This document shows positions 22,648 to 30,142 of a stretch of 64,000 nucleotides of DNA, in pieces (the first letter of the stretch is position 1; each line of letters starts with the position of its first letter). The notes under the pieces were generated by a model. That model was not told the origin of the DNA, searched no databases, and was given only the letters and a program-made list of their open reading frames with translations. Origin of the DNA: an uncultured Sphingomonadaceae bacterium (GTDB lineage Bacteria > Pseudomonadota > Alphaproteobacteria > Sphingomonadales > Sphingomonadaceae); contig CANMFX010000002.1 of assembly GCA_947497315.1 (NCBI GenBank), positions 124,001 through 188,000 on the forward strand. Direction: 5' to 3'. The translations under genes and the position numbers were made by a program.

Positions 22648-23643
22648 CTAACCCCCAACGCCCAGGGCCATTCCCGCTTCGCGGATCCGTTTGGCCTCTG
22701 CGCCGTCATTTTTGAAGGCGGCCAGTCCGTCGGCCAGTGCCTTTTTGGCCTTGGCGGTTTGACCCAGTTGCATGCGGCTGCGCATCAGCATGATCCAGCC
22801 ATTGGCGTCATTGGGATTGGATTGCAGTCGTTGATCAAGGCCATCCACCATATTCGCGATCATCGCTTCCTGCTGACCGGCGGGCAAGGCAGCAGCTTCC
22901 TGCATTTGCTGGCGGCTAGGGCCGGGGATAGCTGCGGTAGCAACTTGCGGACCGTCGGTGGAGATGCCGCCTGTGGGCGCCGCTGGCGTAACCTTTGCGA
23001 GCCGCGCGGCCACGTCGATCTTTTCCTTTTCGGCAACCTGTCCGATCACCCGGCGGATATCTGCGGCATAAGGTGCATCTGCCGGCGTGTCTTCAAGCAA
23101 CGCGAACCAGTCATTAATTGCGCCGCGATGATCGCCGGAAATATCCTTTTGCACGGCCAGGAAATAGCGCGCACGTGGGTCGCTCTTGTCAATGGCCAGC
23201 GCCTTTCTAAAAGCATCTGCGGCATCGCCGGGGACTTGCTGCCCGTCGCTGGACATGACCAGCGCCTCACCCAGCATTGACCAATATTCAGCGTTGTCGG
23301 GATCAAGCGTTGTTGCGCGTTTCATCGCCGTGGCGGATTCGGCAAATTTCTGGGTTTCGAAATAACTCCAGCCCAGCATACGCCAGCTTTCCGCGTCTTC
23401 GGGATCATCCTGAAGCTTTTTTTCAAGGCCAGCTATGACTTCATCAACACTGGGCGCGGCCTGGTTTTCGCCAGCCGCCACCTCGGCGCCTGCGCCGCTG
23501 CCTGAACTTTCTGTATCCATGCCGCGATAAACCTGAACACCGACCGCTGCAATGGCCAGGACCGCGGCTGATATCAGAGCAATACGGCTGATGTTGCCGC
23601 CCGATTTCTTGCCGGATGCTGCAATTTCTTCTGGCTCGCTCAT
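22648..23643 (-). CDS. Membrane-anchored TPR protein, CcmI/NrfG-like (cytochrome c assembly candidate)
   Basis: 331 residues from the chosen ATG. One membrane span near the N-terminus (RIALISAAVLAIAAVGVQVY) is followed by TPR units (ESWRMLGWSYFETQKFAESATAMKRAT, AEYWSMLGEALV, ARYFLAVQKDISGDHRGAI) and a C-terminal region (DANGWIMLMRSRMQLGQTAKAKKAL). This layout matches periplasmic TPR factors such as NrfG and the C-terminal part of CcmI/CycH, which present apocytochrome c to the haem lyase. The family link is similarity of layout, not proof. It is divergent from the decahaem cytochrome set, which would need such a factor. The frame runs open to 23760, but M at 23643 starts a normal protein. Confidence 0.72.
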   Translation of the reverse strand: MSEPEEIAASGKKSGGNISRIALISAAVLAIAAVGVQVYRGMDTESSGSGAGAEVAAGENQAAPSVDEVIAGLEKKLQDDPEDAESWRMLGWSYFETQKFAESATAMKRATTLDPDNAEYWSMLGEALVMSSDGQQVPGDAADAFRKALAIDKSDPRARYFLAVQKDISGDHRGAINDWFALLEDTPADAPYAADIRRVIGQVAEKEKIDVAARLAKVTPAAPTGGISTDGPQVATAAIPGPSRQQMQEAAALPAGQQEAMIANMVDGLDQRLQSNPNDANGWIMLMRSRMQLGQTAKAKKALADGLAAFKNDGAEAKRIREAGMALGVGG

Positions 23644-23705
23644 GTCTAAAACCCGTTTCTCAATTGGTGCGACCCCGTTGATAGCTTCGCATTGTCGTAA
23701 ACTGT

Positions 23706-23756
23706 ACCGCTTTGACAAGTAATTTGTTTCAGATTTTCGATAGTGACCAAAGCGGT
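23706..23756. promoter_or_regulatory. 9-bp inverted repeat in the divergent promoter region
   Basis: ACCGCTTTG (23706-23714) and CAAAGCGGT (23748-23756) are perfect complements 33 bases apart, between the TPR gene and the oxidoreductase fusion gene. A direct repeat of TGGTAAG at 23797 and 23808 (11-bp period) lies nearer the fusion gene. Either could bind a regulator of the divergent pair. I could not place a clear -35/-10 pair. Confidence 0.4.
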
Positions 23757-23919
23757 TCAAACTGTGATATTTTCCACTGGCATATCAAAAGCTTTTTGGT
23801 AAGATGCTGGTAAGTTAAGTCTTTTGGGGTCGCGCTAGAGCCGGAAAAGTTGCTGCATTGGTCCGTTAAAACGCATGAGGGAGCGTTGGGTCAAAAAGGG
23901 CAAAAGGGGGAAGAAGCGC

Positions 23920-26370
23920 GTGGCGGACAAGTTTCGAGTGGTGATCGTGGGATCAGGACCAGCGGGCATGAGTGCCGCCGGTCGTGCTGCACAATTGAAA
24001 CTGAAACATGTGCTCTTGGAAAAGACCGACCACCTTTCTGACACCATCTACAAATATCAAAAGGGCAAGCATGTCATGGCGACGCCGAGCCAGCTGGTGC
24101 TGCGTTCGGATATGGATTTTGACGCGGGCAAGCGTGAAGCGATCCTGGAAATCTGGGACAAGCAAACCGAAGCTTGTGCGGTCAATGTCCAATATAATGC
24201 TGAACCGGTAAAGATCGAAGGCGAAGAAGGCAATTTTACTATCACGTTGAAAAACGGTGATAAAGTAATGGCCGAGACGATTGTTATGGCGATCGGGACG
24301 CAGGGTAATCCCAACCTGATGCGCTGCCCGGGTGGTGATAACAAACTGGTGCAATATCAGCTCGATGATCCCGGCGAATATTATGACGAGCATATCACCG
24401 TCATCGGTTCCGGAGATGCGGGGATTGAAAATGCGCTCGGTCTCGCGGCTGATGCGGCGCAGAATAATATTGTCACGATCCTCAATCGCTCGCCGGAATT
24501 TGCGCGTGCAAAAAAGGCTAACGTAAAGCTGCTGATGGAAGCCGGCGAGCAGGGCAAGGTAGATGTCCGTACCGAGACGACTCCGGCCGAAGTGAAAGAT
24601 GGCGAGCTGGTACTCGAAACCCGCGATGGTCAGGAAACAATCAAGTGCGACCGGATTATTGCACGCATGGGCTCCGCACCGCCGCGCAAATTTGTCGAGC
24701 AATGCGGAATTGAATTTACCAGCGAAGACCGGGAGGCTTATCCCAAGCTGAGCCCGGCTTTCGAAAGCACGAAGAAGGGTATTTATGTCATCGGTGCGCT
24801 GGCCGGCTATCCGCTGATCAAGCACTGTATGAACCAGGGCTATGACGTCATTGAATTTATCAACGGCAACAAGGACCTGAAGCCGGCTGATGAGCCAATT
24901 CTCGAGAAGAAATTCGCGGGCCTGCCCGGTAGCAAGTCGGTCGATGAATGGCTCGAATTTTTTCGCGAGAAGGTCACTATTCTCAATGACCTGTCACCCT
25001 TGCAGATGCGCGAATTCATGCTCGACAGCGAGCCGCGCCGCTATCGTCACGGCGAGGTGGTATTTGAAAAGAATGAACCGGGCTCATCCCTGTTCGCCAT
25101 TGCCGAGGGTTCGGTTGCGGTGGAGATTAATCCCGATGATCCGTCAATCACGGTTCCGATTGAGGAAGGATCGATCTTCGGCGAGGTCGGCCTGATATCC
25201 GGTCGCCGCCGCGGTGCCACCATCAACGCGGCCGAAGACCTGATCGTCGTCGAAATTTCTCGCACGGCGGCGTTGAAATTGCAGGCCTCGGTGCCAGCTG
25301 CCAAGCGCGCCATCACGCGTATCTCCACGGAACGCCAGTTGCTGCAGATGTTTGGTTCCGGCCTGACCAAAGACGATATCTCCGAGGTCGTCGAGAGCAG
25401 CGAGATCATGAATGTCAGGGCAGGCGAAGCGATTATCGAGGAAGGCAGCGAGGGCAATGACATCTACGTCATTCGCGTCGGATCGATGGTGGTGGAAAAG
25501 GAAATTGGCGGCAAGCCGGTGTTCCTGTCCTATCTGCCAGCCGGTTCCTATGTCGGGGAAATGACTCTTATCGCGGGCGGCATGCGGACCGCCACTGTAA
25601 AGGCGGCGATCAAGTCGGAAGTCATCAAGATCAACGGCGATGCCTTCAAGAAGGTGCTCGACAAGCATCCCGACCTGATGCGCAAGGCGAAGCAGGAAAT
25701 GGCTTCCCGTCAGGATATCAATGCCTTTGTCGAGGCCAAGAAAGACAGCTTTTCCGGCGTTGTCGATATGTATTCCGGCGTTGCCAATTTCCTCGTCGAC
25801 AATGGCATCGGCGAAGCAACCGACGTGTTGCTGATCGACGAGAATCTCTGCGTGGGCTGCGACAATTGCGAGAAAGCCTGCGCCGACAGTCATGAAGGTC
25901 TGTCCCGTCTCGACCGTGAAGCGGGCCGGACCTATGCGCATCTGCACGTCCCAACCAGCTGTCGCCACTGCGAGCATCCGCACTGCATGTCCGATTGCCC
26001 GCCCGATGCGATCCATCGCGGTCCAGACGGGGAGGTCTTCATCGATGACACTTGCATCGGCTGCGGCAATTGCCAGCGTTATTGCCCCTATGGCGTGATC
26101 CGCATGGACAAGGTGCCGCCGAAGAAACCTGGTCTGCTGAGCTGGCTGTTCTTCGGTAGCGGGCCGGGGCCCGGTGAGCCCGACAAGCAATGGGCCGCGG
26201 AAAATAGCGATCCCGATGTCGAGAAACCCAAGAAAGCAATCAAATGTGATATGTGCGCCGGTATCAACGGCGGCCCGGCCTGTGTCCGTGCCTGTCCGAC
26301 CGGTGCCGCGATCCGCGTCGCGCCAGAAGAGTTCCTCACTGTCGCCAAGCTAGAGCAGGAGGACGCGTGA
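23920..26370 (+). CDS. Fusion protein: flavin/NAD(P) oxidoreductase + two cyclic-nucleotide-binding domains + four-cluster ferredoxin
   Basis: 816 residues from the GTG at 23920, which has AGGGGGAAG upstream; an ATG at 23875 lacks such a site. Domains: (1) residues about 5-320, two-dinucleotide-fold oxidoreductase with VGSGPAGMSAAG (FAD) and IGSGDAGIENA (NAD(P)), like thioredoxin reductase but with no CxxC disulfide; (2) about 355-470 and 475-600, two CRP-type cNMP-binding domains with phosphate-cassette segments FGEVGLISGRRRGAT and VGEMTLIAGGMRTAT, both keeping the Glu and Arg that bind the nucleotide; (3) about 635-800, sixteen cysteines in CVGCDNCEKAC, CRHCEHPHCMSDC, CIGCGNCQRYC and CDMC-x8-CVRAC, for four [4Fe-4S] clusters as in HybA/DmsB proteins. 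I infer NAD(P)H-to-FeS electron transfer gated by cyclic nucleotide. It has no signal peptide, so it is cytoplasmic. Confidence 0.88.
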   Translation: MADKFRVVIVGSGPAGMSAAGRAAQLKLKHVLLEKTDHLSDTIYKYQKGKHVMATPSQLVLRSDMDFDAGKREAILEIWDKQTEACAVNVQYNAEPVKIEGEEGNFTITLKNGDKVMAETIVMAIGTQGNPNLMRCPGGDNKLVQYQLDDPGEYYDEHITVIGSGDAGIENALGLAADAAQNNIVTILNRSPEFARAKKANVKLLMEAGEQGKVDVRTETTPAEVKDGELVLETRDGQETIKCDRIIARMGSAPPRKFVEQCGIEFTSEDREAYPKLSPAFESTKKGIYVIGALAGYPLIKHCMNQGYDVIEFINGNKDLKPADEPILEKKFAGLPGSKSVDEWLEFFREKVTILNDLSPLQMREFMLDSEPRRYRHGEVVFEKNEPGSSLFAIAEGSVAVEINPDDPSITVPIEEGSIFGEVGLISGRRRGATINAAEDLIVVEISRTAALKLQASVPAAKRAITRISTERQLLQMFGSGLTKDDISEVVESSEIMNVRAGEAIIEEGSEGNDIYVIRVGSMVVEKEIGGKPVFLSYLPAGSYVGEMTLIAGGMRTATVKAAIKSEVIKINGDAFKKVLDKHPDLMRKAKQEMASRQDINAFVEAKKDSFSGVVDMYSGVANFLVDNGIGEATDVLLIDENLCVGCDNCEKACADSHEGLSRLDREAGRTYAHLHVPTSCRHCEHPHCMSDCPPDAIHRGPDGEVFIDDTCIGCGNCQRYCPYGVIRMDKVPPKKPGLLSWLFFGSGPGPGEPDKQWAAENSDPDVEKPKKAIKCDMCAGINGGPACVRACPTGAAIRVAPEEFLTVAKLEQEDA

Positions 26371-26399
26371 TGAGGAGCCTGTTTTCTGATACTTCACAC

Positions 26400-26477
26400 C
26401 GTCATCCCAGCGAAAGCTGGGATCTCCTCAAGGAGAGCGGTAAACTTAGGGAGATCCCAGCTTTCGCTGGGATGACG
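26400..26477. repeat. Perfect 28-bp inverted repeat (paired extragenic palindrome) inside the redox gene set
   Basis: Left arm 26400-26427 and right arm 26450-26477 are exact complements; each arm itself contains the CCAGC-GAAA-GCTGG hairpin. The 22-base spacer includes AAGGAGAGCGG. It lies between the fusion gene and the membrane protein gene and does not interrupt either. A long RNA hairpin here could set the ratio of upstream to downstream product, or act as a partial terminator. Confidence 0.75.
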
Positions 26478-26500
26478 ATCGCTATGGGAGGGCATGCATA

Positions 26501-27382
26501 ATGGCCTCTGTTCCAGTTCCCGGCGGCGTCTCGAAAAAGAAAGTCGCCATGCATGACGGCTTTCTCAAACATGCCGGCTATAAATGGCTTAAAATCGCTT
26601 CCTTCATCATGTTGGTCTGCATCGTAAGCTATCTCTTTATCGACGTATCTCCGCGCCACAACGGCGGTAGCTGGTATGGCTATACGCTCGGCACAATTGG
26701 CGCGGGCCTGATCCTTTGGCTGACCATGCTTGGTGTCCGCAAGAGGGCAATGACCCCGGGCAAATGGTCGCTCAAGGCTTGGACCTCGGCGCATATCTAT
26801 CTCGGCCTCAGTCTGATTGTCATCGGTACTTTGCATACCGGTTTCCAGTTTGGCTGGAATGTTCATACAGCCGCCTATGCCTTCATGATGATCGTGATCA
26901 TCTCTGGCATTGTCGGCATCTATTTCTACGCCACCATTCCGCAGGCGCTGTCCAACAATCGCGACGAGATGACCGAGACGCAGATGCTTGAAAGTCTGCG
27001 TTCGCTCGACCGGCAATTGCATGAAGCGGCACAACCCCTGTCAGCAGAACATGCAGCGCTTGTGCTGCAATCGCTGGAGCAGGATCCCTTTGGTGGCGGT
27101 TTTCTGAAACGGGTATCCGGCAAATATCCCAATTGCGCTACCCGCGCTGCGCAGGCTGATTTGCGGCGGGAACGCGCATATCAGCCTCGCATGGGCGGAG
27201 ATGATCCGCTCGACAAGGTTGATGCGCTGCTTGAGAAGAAAGAGGCGACGCTCGCGCGCGTCCGCCGCCATCTTCGGCTGAAAGCGCTGCTGCAGGTCTG
27301 GCTGTTCATCCATGTGCCGATGACCTTCGCCCTGATCGCGTCACTGTCGGCGCATATCATCAGCGTTTTCTTTTATTGGTAG
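26501..27382 (+). CDS. Membrane protein with two His-x13-His pairs, predicted di-haem cytochrome b
   Basis: 293 residues, five predicted spans: about 31-49, 60-79, 97-115, 122-143 and 264-291, with a cytoplasmic-looking charged region between the last two. Span 3 has His98 and His112, span 5 has His271 and His285, each pair with thirteen residues between. This His-x13-His spacing in two helices is the haem-ligating pattern of bc1-type cytochrome b, so two stacked b haems are predicted. I do not recognise a named family. GGGAGGG lies eight bases ahead of the ATG. It would link the cytoplasmic ferredoxin fusion to the periplasmic multihaem protein encoded next, or exchange electrons with quinone. 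Confidence 0.75.
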   Translation: MASVPVPGGVSKKKVAMHDGFLKHAGYKWLKIASFIMLVCIVSYLFIDVSPRHNGGSWYGYTLGTIGAGLILWLTMLGVRKRAMTPGKWSLKAWTSAHIYLGLSLIVIGTLHTGFQFGWNVHTAAYAFMMIVIISGIVGIYFYATIPQALSNNRDEMTETQMLESLRSLDRQLHEAAQPLSAEHAALVLQSLEQDPFGGGFLKRVSGKYPNCATRAAQADLRRERAYQPRMGGDDPLDKVDALLEKKEATLARVRRHLRLKALLQVWLFIHVPMTFALIASLSAHIISVFFYW

Positions 27383-27397
27383 GCGGGAGATAGCAGC

Positions 27398-29266
27398 ATG
27401 ACCTTTATCGTTCGCCAGATTGCCGTCACCGCCGATGGCCGCGAGATTATCCGCTCCAATCCGTTCACCGATGCTGAAATCGGGATCGGCCGTAATACGG
27501 CAAATGCGATCCATCTGCCTGACCTTGCCGTCAATCCCGACCATGCGGTCATTCGCCAGCTTGAAGACGGGCAGATAGAGATTGAGAGCATTTCAGGCCA
27601 GAAATTCTCGGTTGATGGCAGGGATCAGATGTCCGCAACCATTGATCCCGGCGCCGGTGCTGAAATTGGTTTTGGCGGCCATGTCATAGCGGTCAGCCAA
27701 GGCGAAGAAGGTGTGACCCTGACCGTCAAACGGGTCGAGGCGCTTTCTGATTCCGCAGAAGAGCGGGAAGAGGGCGCGCTTTATACGCTGAAAGGACTGC
27801 TGCCCGGCAAACGGATCAGCGCATGGGGCTTTGTCGGACTTATGCTTGCGGCGTTCCTGATCTGGCCGATCTATACCTGGGCCACTTATCGCGGTGTTGA
27901 AGAACGGCCCGAGGGTTTCCACGCTGACACGATGTGGACATCCGGCGCGCTCAGTGACGCGCATCATAGTCTGGAAGGCGATTGTCAGGCCTGCCACGTC
28001 GATGCTTTTGTGACGGTGACAGATAAAACCTGTCTCAACTGCCATGAAGATGATGCGCATGATCATGCCAAGAAAGATCGCCTGCTGACCGCCATGGGAG
28101 AGCCCGAGGGATTTGAAAAAGTCGGTGCGGCTTTTGCCTCGGCCTTTAACAAGCCACCTGGCAGGTGTGTCGAATGTCACACCGAGCATGAGGGGGCAGG
28201 TGCTATGGAACCTACTGCGCAAAAATTCTGCGCAGACTGTCACGAGGGAATGGACGGACGTTTGACCGATACAGAGCTTGAAAATGCGTCGGATTTCGGG
28301 ATTTCACACCCGCAATTCCGCCCTGCTTTGCTGGTCCAGCCCGGCGGTAAAAATCCACCTCGTAGGCGGGTTTCACTCGATGAGAAGCCGACCGAATATA
28401 ATGGTCTGAAATTCCCGCATGATGTGCATATGTCAAAAACTGGCGGGGTCGCGCAAATGGGACGGCGGCTGTCGGCGAAATTTGGTTTTGGCGATTCGCT
28501 GGTCTGTGCAGACTGCCATACGCCGGATTCGAACGGTGTTCGGTTTGAGCCCGTGGACATGGAAGAAGATTGCGCGATGTGCCACAGTCTTGCTTTTGAA
28601 GAGATTGGCAGCACGGTCCGTACTTTGCGGCACGGCGAGCCCGATATGGTGCGCGCTGACCTGCGCGCTTATTATCGGTCCACTGGTCCTTCGCGGCCAA
28701 TTAATCTTGGCGGTATGAAGCGGCGGCGTCCGGGTGCAGAAAATGACAACAGGGTGGCAAGCGATTATGCGCGTGCTGTCCAGTTCAGGCCAAGCCGCGC
28801 AAATCTGGCGATCCAGCAGGTATTTTCACGCGGTGGTGCCTGTTTCGATTGCCATGGCGTGACGCCGCCGACGGCGCGCGGACGGGTTGACTATGGTATC
28901 AAACCGGTAACGCAGACTGATCGTTATATGCACAAGGGCTGGTTCAGCCATGAAGCGCATAATGACGAGGATTGCACCTCCTGCCATGCAGCGACGACAT
29001 CAGACAACGCGCGCGACCTGCTGTTGCCCGGCATCAAAACCTGTCGTGAATGTCATGGCGGCGAGTTCCAGAAAAGCTCCGATGTTCCTTCGAGCTGCGC
29101 CATGTGTCATGATTACCATGCCGATGACGGCGCGCCCTGGCTGATCAAGGAGCAGCAGAAGGACAAGCGGAAAAAGCCTGACAAGATGGCGAATGATAAT
29201 GAGGCGCTTAAGCCTTCCGACAAGCTGACAGTTAAGATAAGAAAGCAGAAAATTGCCAGTCGTTAG
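27398..29266 (+). CDS. FHA-like domain + membrane span + periplasmic decahaem cytochrome c
   Basis: 622 residues. Residues 1-110 form an FHA-like domain (IGIGRNTANAIHLPDLAVNP with DHAVI after it); the phosphothreonine-contacting Ser is Asn here, and the late Asn is missing, so binding may be altered. A single span (about 140-163, KRI before it) gives a cytoplasmic N-terminus and periplasmic C-terminus. The rest has ten CxxCH haem sites: C196, C212, C257, C278, C370, C392, C482, C526, C549 and C567 (first Cys of each). FPHDVH and FSHEAH supply likely distal ligands as in c3/c7-type cytochromes. No export signal other than the span. It starts 15 bases after the cytochrome b-like gene and presumably receives its electrons. 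Confidence 0.85.
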   Translation: MTFIVRQIAVTADGREIIRSNPFTDAEIGIGRNTANAIHLPDLAVNPDHAVIRQLEDGQIEIESISGQKFSVDGRDQMSATIDPGAGAEIGFGGHVIAVSQGEEGVTLTVKRVEALSDSAEEREEGALYTLKGLLPGKRISAWGFVGLMLAAFLIWPIYTWATYRGVEERPEGFHADTMWTSGALSDAHHSLEGDCQACHVDAFVTVTDKTCLNCHEDDAHDHAKKDRLLTAMGEPEGFEKVGAAFASAFNKPPGRCVECHTEHEGAGAMEPTAQKFCADCHEGMDGRLTDTELENASDFGISHPQFRPALLVQPGGKNPPRRRVSLDEKPTEYNGLKFPHDVHMSKTGGVAQMGRRLSAKFGFGDSLVCADCHTPDSNGVRFEPVDMEEDCAMCHSLAFEEIGSTVRTLRHGEPDMVRADLRAYYRSTGPSRPINLGGMKRRRPGAENDNRVASDYARAVQFRPSRANLAIQQVFSRGGACFDCHGVTPPTARGRVDYGIKPVTQTDRYMHKGWFSHEAHNDEDCTSCHAATTSDNARDLLLPGIKTCRECHGGEFQKSSDVPSSCAMCHDYHADDGAPWLIKEQQKDKRKKPDKMANDNEALKPSDKLTVKIRKQKIASR

Positions 29267-29293
29267 CGGCGACATAACAGAGAGGAAGCGCCC

Positions 29294-30142
29294 ATGATCT
29301 TGGCGCAGGTAACGGATATCCATCTCGGTTTTGACCCGGATAATCCGTCGGAATTTAACCGCAAGCGCCTTGATCAGGCGCTCAAGGTCCTGTGCGAGAT
29401 GACGCCGCGACCTGACGCTCTGCTCGCTACGGGCGACTTGGTCGATCGCGGTGATCAGGATAGTTACATGCGGCTGGAGCAGGCTTTTTCCGACTTGCCG
29501 TTTCCTGTCTATATGTGCCTGGGCAACCATGATCTGCGGGCACCATTTCAGAAACAGTTTCCCGATGTGCCCTCGGCAGATGGCTTTGTCCAATATGAGA
29601 TTGACGATGGCCCGCTGCGCCTGCTGTTTCTGGATACGCTGGAAGAGGGGCGTCACGGGGGTGCCTTTTGCGAAGTTCGGGCGCGATGGTTGTCTGAAAA
29701 ACTTGCCGAAAAACAGGACAAACCGACTTTGCTCATCATGCATCATCCTCCTGTGGAATCGGGTATTGCATGGATGAATACCGATCCGCGCGAGCCATGG
29801 GTGTCGGTGCTGGCCGAAACGATTGCAGGGCATGACCAGATCAAGGGTATGATTACTGGCCACCTGCACCGGAATATTTCAACGTCTTTTGAAGGCACAA
29901 ACCTCTCGATTTGTGCGTCCACTGCACCGCAAGTCGCGTTTGACCTGGAACCGATTGATCCTGAAAACCCTGATGGCCGCAATATGATTGTAGCGGACCC
30001 GCCGGCCATTGCACTGCACTGGTGGAATGGCAAACAGCTCGTCAGTCATTTCGAGACGGCCGAAGAGCATGTGATGCTCGCCCGCTATGACGAGAATCTG
30101 CAGCCACTGGTGCGAGCCTTGCTTGCTGAGCGACCTGATTAG
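29294..30142 (+). CDS. cpdA: Class III cyclic-nucleotide phosphodiesterase (CpdA-like metallophosphoesterase)
   Basis: 282 residues. The full metallophosphoesterase motif set of the CpdA group is present: D8-x-H10 (VTDIHLG), GD48 in TGDLVDRGD, GN78-H79-D80, H150 in MHHPPVESG and GH190-L-H192-R. These bind two metals that cleave the cyclic phosphodiester of 3',5'-cAMP. GAGAGGAAG gives a ribosome-binding site, 27 bases after the decahaem stop. The placement beside a protein with two cNMP-binding domains suggests it removes the ligand that controls that protein. Specificity for cAMP over other phosphodiesters is inferred. Confidence 0.85.
   Translation: MILAQVTDIHLGFDPDNPSEFNRKRLDQALKVLCEMTPRPDALLATGDLVDRGDQDSYMRLEQAFSDLPFPVYMCLGNHDLRAPFQKQFPDVPSADGFVQYEIDDGPLRLLFLDTLEEGRHGGAFCEVRARWLSEKLAEKQDKPTLLIMHHPPVESGIAWMNTDPREPWVSVLAETIAGHDQIKGMITGHLHRNISTSFEGTNLSICASTAPQVAFDLEPIDPENPDGRNMIVADPPAIALHWWNGKQLVSHFETAEEHVMLARYDENLQPLVRALLAERPD

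Follow-up and report, generated by a model that had tools for sequence, protein, structure and literature searches.

Within a 64,000-nucleotide stretch of a contig from an uncultured Sphingomonadaceae bacterium (CANMFX010000002.1, positions 124,001 to 188,000; hereafter the window), we examined four open reading frames, all on the + strand, whose products may form part of an electron-transfer route across the cell envelope. Gene A (23920..26370) encodes a cytoplasmic fusion of a flavin adenine dinucleotide (FAD)/NAD(P) oxidoreductase, two cyclic nucleotide-binding (CNB) domains and a 4x[4Fe-4S] ferredoxin. Gene B (26501..27382) encodes a membrane protein that is a candidate dihaem cytochrome b. 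The product of gene C (27398..29266) combines an FHA-like domain, one membrane span and a ten-haem c domain, and gene D (29294..30142) encodes a calcineurin-like phosphoesterase resembling CpdA and SpdA. A first-pass annotation, made from the letters of the window, had proposed that the set forms an electron conduit switched by a cyclic nucleotide and equipped with its own phosphodiesterase. The intergenic distances that it gave (130, 15 and 27 bases) were reproduced exactly, the first gap holding an inverted repeat, and its domain calls, gene order and view of the set as an operon were borne out by Pfam matches and by the conserved arrangement described below.

The linkage of these genes was followed at increasing distances. 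A scan of genome contigs for B returned at least 582 confirmed relatives, of which 80 were kept as a near set; 147 Sphingomonadales genomes, drawn evenly, sampled the order; and wider stretches were fetched around 40 B matches from the class and the phylum, 28 of them (L155-L178 and L191-L194) with a strong B. Reading frames in these far stretches were called greedily, false ones included. All four genes are present in 74 of the 80 near loci, and the remaining six run into a contig end. Spacing is tight, with a median of 10.5 bases between B and C (78 loci) and of 27 between C and D (75 loci); nine A-B distances of 2453-2599 bases were left out as artefacts of start-codon choice. Strong relatives of C occur in 25 of the 147 order genomes, and in every one of them C is preceded by B and, wherever the flank extends far enough, by the C-terminal part of A. 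D directly follows C in 24 of the 25; in the other, G105, it lies beside a cyclase and a decahaem gene. B is matched in 41 of 337 genomes of the class, strongly in 32 (E value below 1e-70), and in 15 of 349 genomes of the phylum sample, where four strong matches lie outside the class (G479, G504, G611 and G612). The A-B-C core is found in further alphaproteobacterial families and beyond, usually followed there by genes for a double-HbpS protein, an AlgE-like barrel and a decahaem protein with LVIVD repeats. The four-gene arrangement is conserved and therefore not due to chance, and the linkage that the initial proposal implied is strong; its persistence across near relatives, order, class and phylum rules out a merely local oddity.

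The FAD/NAD(P) domains of A, two stretches of PF00027 (110 bits against a cut-off of 27.5) and the 4Fe-4S domains all exceed their Pfam cut-offs (the families considered being the best 25 of 29 from Pfam and the best 25 of 145 from NCBIfam), which agrees with the architecture first read from visible motifs. The frame is open from 23875, and a GTG at 23920 is the likelier start, since residues 12-16 of the longer frame are where 41 of 79 alignments with homologues start. The flavoprotein domain (Pyr_redox_2; 23932..24840, residues 20-322) is similar to YpdA and thioredoxin reductase, and the ferredoxin part (25834..26349, DmsB/HydN-like), whose 16 cluster cysteines would hold four [4Fe-4S] clusters, is similar to AegA, HydN and DmsB. 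A nevertheless falls below the curated cut-offs of these proteins (126.5 bits against 339.9 for YpdA, TIGR04018) and differs from them in its fused CNB domains. Thioredoxin reductases carry a redox CxxC; the flavin domain of A has none and is therefore unlikely to be a disulfide reductase of that type. The CNB domains (CNB1, approximately 25036..25299, cassette FGE..R.AT; CNB2, approximately 25357..25719, cassette GE..RTAT) match CRP, the PKA regulatory subunit, the SthK channel and mycobacterial Pat by sequence, cassette Glu and Arg included, but sit between flavin and Fe-S domains; to our knowledge none of those four proteins is a redox enzyme. Across 89 aligned A sequences (the window with 66 of 79 near and 22 of 26 far sequences, the other 13 and 4 having been left out as cut or because the start choice failed), the Glu and Arg of CNB1 are invariant, as is the Arg of CNB2, while the Glu of CNB2 is invariant in the far sequences and present in at least 90% of the near ones. 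This pattern is what binding of a cyclic nucleoside monophosphate (cNMP) would need, and such binding is predicted.

B bears two His-x13-His pairs, His98/His112 and His271/His285, as had been noted at the outset, and all four histidines are invariant in 45 aligned sequences (the window, 12 of the 80 near and 32 of the 36 far proteins), down to 18% identity. An AlphaFold model (pLDDT 90, pTM 0.81) places His98/His112 in helix 91-113 and the other pair in helix 236-291, and by eye the model has probably five spans. Two invariant His pairs in predicted membrane helices are the pattern of a dihaem cytochrome b. Pfam returned only a sub-threshold cytochrome b561 match, and a B profile run against PDB sequences gave one unrelated match (E 1.2). 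At two far loci, A and B are encoded in a single open frame of about 1120 residues (L177, 3052-6420; L178, 4350-7703), an arrangement that fits direct electron transfer from A to B.

In C, the FHA-like part covers residues ~1-115 and the span, placed by eye, residues ~140-163, ahead of a ten-haem domain matched by Cytochrome_C7 and c3-type families of Pfam. Ten CxxCH motifs are present in all 76 near proteins (the window included; three short sequences of 78 were left out) and in 27 of 29 far ones. Ten further conserved histidines are candidate distal ligands, nine of them kept in 76 of 76 near proteins and the tenth in 71; they are enough for bis-His ligation of all ten haems, the arrangement we predict. 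The FHA match scores 19.1 bits in the window, just under the Pfam cut-off of 20.7, and 28.3 bits, above it, in the C of the relative L166; the layout originally described for this protein stands. FHA readers of phosphothreonine have a conserved Gly-Arg and the Ser of a Ser-x-x-His motif, which contacts the phosphothreonine. In C, Gly31 (105 of 105 sequences) and Arg32 (104 of 105) are kept and the Ser position is occupied by Asn, Glu, Asp and others; this part is therefore more likely a docking module than a phosphothreonine reader. Searches of C against PDB sequences returned weak haem and FHA matches.

D exceeds the cut-off of PF00149 (Metallophos), which upholds its reading as a phosphoesterase; the narrower label of a CpdA-type enzyme was not confirmed: D misses the CpdA (3',5'-cAMP) equivalog cut-off of NCBIfam (80.9 bits against 225) and scores higher for SpdA, a 2',3'-cNMP enzyme (138.3 against 400). 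Nor does D look like an integral member of the set, as had been supposed: of the 40 stretches fetched from class and phylum, L174 alone gave a match to D, which lies about 5 kb beyond C and is truncated where the stretch stops. D as a core part of the conduit is thus unsupported outside the Sphingomonadaceae within these stretches.

More distant versions of the core occur at L179-L182 and L184-L190, with an A-like protein (A') carrying CNB and/or ferredoxin domains and no flavoprotein match, a B-like protein and mostly a ten-haem protein. At L182 (4903-9811), as at L181 and L185-L190, a CNB-ferredoxin fusion without a flavin domain accompanies a B-like protein and a ten-haem protein, and the second CNB cassette of the L182 fusion looks degenerate by eye. 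Both distant loci scanned, L181 and L182, contain a separate FAD/NAD/2Fe-2S reductase, and several carry a C554-like cytochrome.

The proposed route had ended at periplasmic c haems. The four-gene set remains as drawn, and the route was incomplete, since genes for an outer half accompany A-B-C in relatives. At 19 of the 28 far loci with a strong B, an HbpS-like protein and a barrel follow C on the same strand (a twentieth, L161, ends inside the HbpS gene), and the decahaem gene follows the barrel at 16 of the 19; at the remaining three the fetched stretch stops inside the barrel gene or shortly beyond it. In the Sphingomonadaceae, the decahaem gene falls inside the fetched stretch at 18 of the 80 contig loci, and it adjoins the barrel gene at all 18 near loci that have one; a tetrahaem gene often accompanies this pair. 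The decahaem protein has ~1350 residues, ten CxxCH motifs and LVIVD repeats. Strong matches to it occur in 25 of the 147 order genomes, the identical set that carries C, and every one of the 25 class genomes with a strong decahaem match has a strong B as well. Matches dropped as weak were G136 for C, G086 for the decahaem protein in the order, nine for B and five for the decahaem protein in the class. In G136, a genome with neither a decahaem nor a cyclase match, the weak C-like stretch (contig C2, 60413-60730) has two stops and may be the remnant of a lost island. The outer half does not lie beside A-B-C in the window, where no second reading frame in the 64 kb has two or more CxxCH besides C; a whole-genome count of the CxxCH pattern (408 matches against 124 for a reversed-pattern control) was uninformative. 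In the window's genome these genes are on another contig, C3, as a run of decahaem (173174-177205, its product 74% identical to that of L129), barrel, HbpS-like and C554-type tetrahaem genes. The HbpS-like protein there is a double HbpS with a lipobox, seen by eye, and judging by this it would be a lipoprotein.

A model of the barrel has 18 strands and AlgE, the alginate exporter, as its best fold (E 4e-17), at a mean pLDDT of 64.8 with residues 1-201 and 562-593 mostly low. Pfam gave no match in the barrel of the window's genome or in that of L230, and PF13372 (Alginate_exp) is at its cut-off in that of L166. The decahaem protein has no match among PDB sequences, and its NCBIfam hits (ExtM, ExtO and ExtN, all inside this protein) are far below their cut-offs, with ExtM at 67.7 bits against 800. 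Given an alginate-exporter fold and HbpS-like domains that are named as haem-degrading, one could suppose that there is no outward route: A, B and C would supply the periplasm with reductant for reactions of haem or thiols or for a link to quinone, and transport of haem or a polymer would fall to the barrel and HbpS protein. The regular place of the decahaem gene against the barrel gene, often with the tetrahaem gene alongside, speaks against this, and we regard it as quite improbable. It is instead very likely that the conduit continues to or through the outer membrane by way of the barrel, the decahaem/LVIVD protein, the HbpS-like protein and often the tetrahaem cytochrome; the system is larger than four genes and would be a trans-envelope conduit whose gating is possibly unprecedented.

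A role for a cyclic nucleotide was strengthened by a cyclase that co-occurs with the set and often neighbours it, and by the conserved phosphate-cassette residues. Of the 147 order genomes, 50 have a class III cyclase (PF00211); these are all 25 carriers of C and 25 of the 122 non-carriers. Within the window's family, four genomes have a cyclase and no C, and all belong to genus g13. Genera g3, g4, g6, g7 and g16 each mix genomes with and without C, and the six listed non-carriers among them (G091, G025, G088, G050, G124 and G117) all lack a cyclase. In 19 of the 25 carriers a cyclase gene is no more than 30 kb from C or from the decahaem gene, against ~1.35 expected by chance; in the window's genome it is 23 kb from the decahaem gene. 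Of 18 neighbouring cyclases fetched (that of the window's genome included), 15 are full-length orthologues, 44-61% identical to the window genome's, with conserved catalytic motifs, and both cyclases scanned have CHASE2 and cyclase domains. Seven genomes (L230 and L232-L237) carry an island of ~20 kb with the order cyclase, tetrahaem, HbpS, barrel, decahaem and then, convergently, D-C-B-A; the stretches of L230, L232, L233 and L236 end inside A. In Sphingobium herbicidovorans the set is on plasmid pMSHV (typed as conjugative in PLSDB), where A is annotated as cyclic nucleotide-binding, B as hypothetical and C as of the cytochrome c3 family, and where a CHASE2 protein, matched by annotation alone, is encoded ~9 kb from the tetrahaem gene. 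On this plasmid (L252, 841-14950) the CHASE2 protein stands between a CHAT-domain protein and a hypothetical gene; these are followed by an ShlB/FhaC-type transporter and a hypothetical protein of 2092 residues next to the tetrahaem gene.

The CNB domains might instead be structural or bind another ligand, leaving an ungated conduit, with the cyclase and D serving other targets borne on the island. CNB folds often bind no cNMP, D scores higher as a 2',3'-cNMP enzyme than as CpdA, and the distant L182 has its apparently degenerate second cassette. We nonetheless consider the absence of gating unlikely, given that both cassettes keep their Glu and Arg throughout the aligned A proteins (apart from the few near sequences without the CNB2 Glu) and that the cyclase is present in every carrier and in none of the six same-genus non-carriers listed. 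The catalytic motif of the cyclase looks to be of the adenylyl type, by a rule that we take to apply here, and cyclic AMP (cAMP) is therefore favoured as the messenger.

Our preferred reading, to which we give slightly better than an even chance, is an electron conduit across the envelope that is gated by cAMP and has A, B and C as its inner-membrane half. The flavoprotein domain of A would oxidise NAD(P)H, and electrons would pass from its FAD through the four [4Fe-4S] clusters to two haems b, for which the His-x13-His pairs of B would be the ligands, and then, on the periplasmic side, to the ten haems c that membrane-anchored C would carry. From C they would move on to the decahaem/LVIVD protein and, in many cases, a C554-type tetrahaem cytochrome, which would bring them to the outer membrane or across it, towards a presumed extracellular acceptor, with the AlgE-like barrel and the double-HbpS protein helping at this step. 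A cyclic nucleotide, most likely cAMP from the CHASE2 cyclase, would bind the tandem CNB domains of A and act as the flow switch, and in Sphingomonadaceae D would lower the messenger and so serve as the off-switch. We advance only tentatively, as possible and short of probable, a fuller version in which the CHASE2 cyclase senses an envelope signal and makes cAMP, whose binding opens a path for electrons from NAD(P)H to the surface, by way of the haems b and at least twenty haems c, until the dedicated phosphodiesterase closes it.

Several points weigh against the gated conduit. The case for it is built from genes, and haem loading of B is assumed. Foldseek and VIA-align comparisons of the B model returned helical bundles without a clear cytochrome relative, a result that does not exclude cytochrome b families. 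Only 15 of the 25 order genomes, the window's not among them, have the decahaem gene at a distance of 30 kb or less from C, and 7 of the 32 class genomes with a strong B (G170, G197, G205, G250, G265, G368 and G401) have no decahaem protein; the four examined further, G197, G205, G250 and G265, have a C554-type cytochrome near A-B-C instead. The cyclase is absent within 30 kb in 6 of the 25 carriers, and 3 of the 18 neighbouring cyclases are not orthologous. No cyclase was found beside the far loci with the 18 sphingomonad cyclases as queries. All 34 non-sphingomonad carriers have a cyclase; cyclases being common outside the order, the link is therefore telling only inside Sphingomonadales. 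The genomes share ancestry, so p-values for co-occurrence overstate their independence, and the cyclase may be carried along by the island without having any effect on A. D is under both NCBIfam cut-offs and nearer to the 2',3'-cNMP enzyme. Finally, sphingomonads are mostly aerobes, and an extracellular acceptor is therefore not obvious.

The last point bears also on direction. Electron uptake is as conceivable as disposal in mostly aerobic bacteria, multihaem chains can run both ways, and the ferredoxin part of A resembles relays of several enzymes that differ in direction; the same conduit might thus run in reverse, from an extracellular donor through the outer haem proteins to C, B and A, and on to NAD(P)+ or quinone. 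Transfer from haem c to NAD(P)+ needs a low-potential donor or an energy input, and none of the neighbouring proteins scanned could be recognised as an energy-coupling subunit. We think inward flow unlikely and infer that electrons move outward through the gated conduit.

In the literature searched, no description of this gene set and no complex with this combination was found, most subscription papers and all bioRxiv preprints being outside its scope; to this extent the first-pass annotation was right to regard the combination as undescribed. The closest known systems are porin-cytochrome conduits such as MtrCAB of Shewanella and Pcc of Geobacter, in which an outer barrel and multihaem c cytochromes are joined to an inner-membrane feeder. 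Here too a barrel is encoded with multihaem cytochromes c (decahaem/LVIVD adjacent, tetrahaem nearby) and a linked inner-membrane feeder. Barrels of the MtrB/PioB family have 26 strands, whereas this one has 18 predicted strands, an AlgE-like fold and no MtrB-type Pfam match. The quinol-oxidising inner module of MtrCAB-type conduits is CymA; here its place is taken by the NAD(P)H/CNB/ferredoxin fusion with B and C, and a cyclase and a phosphodiesterase are part of the island. The ext cluster of Geobacter (extHIJKLMNOPQS), connected with selenite and tellurite, comprises, as described in the main text of PMC5877670, a porin, several multihaem cytochromes, a cytochrome b and an Fe-S protein, among them the Rieske protein ExtO and the bc-type cytochrome b ExtP, besides the rhodanese ExtH and the selenoprotein ExtKL. 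The general composition is alike, and the decahaem/LVIVD protein is weakly ExtM-like, but no Rieske, bc-type, rhodanese or selenoprotein match is found among the best families for A-D or in the outer operon. The terms cyclic and LVIVD are absent from that main text. With the Rieske, rhodanese and selenoprotein members described there unmatched here, we rejected identity with the ext cluster.

Two further features of the locus lie around gene A. The gap between A and B (26371-26500) contains a palindromic repeat with 33-nt arms (26400..26477), an 18-base core of which is matched exactly at 7 places in the genome, two of these being its own arms. The repeat is absent from this junction in the close relatives compared. 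At L075-L077, L079, L082, L085 and L092 the A stop and the B start overlap, and at L086 and L090 a different palindrome is seen by eye. Divergent from A, a TPR protein (22648-23760, - strand) shows weak similarity to the haem-lyase subunit NrfG (41 bits against 306) and is possibly a CcmI-like factor of cytochrome c maturation; an annotated TPR gene occupies the same position in Sphingobium herbicidovorans.

If the gated conduit holds, these genes would encode a route for electrons across the envelope that has so far not been described, is widespread among sphingomonads and also occurs in other Alphaproteobacteria. It would be a redox chain under post-translational cyclic-nucleotide control, doing for electrons what a cyclic-nucleotide-gated channel does for ions. 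Genes whose present annotation reads hypothetical, cyclic nucleotide-binding or multiheme cytochrome would thereby be explained, and the system would offer a defined gene set, complete with cyclase and phosphodiesterase, in which the on/off control of electron routes could be studied.

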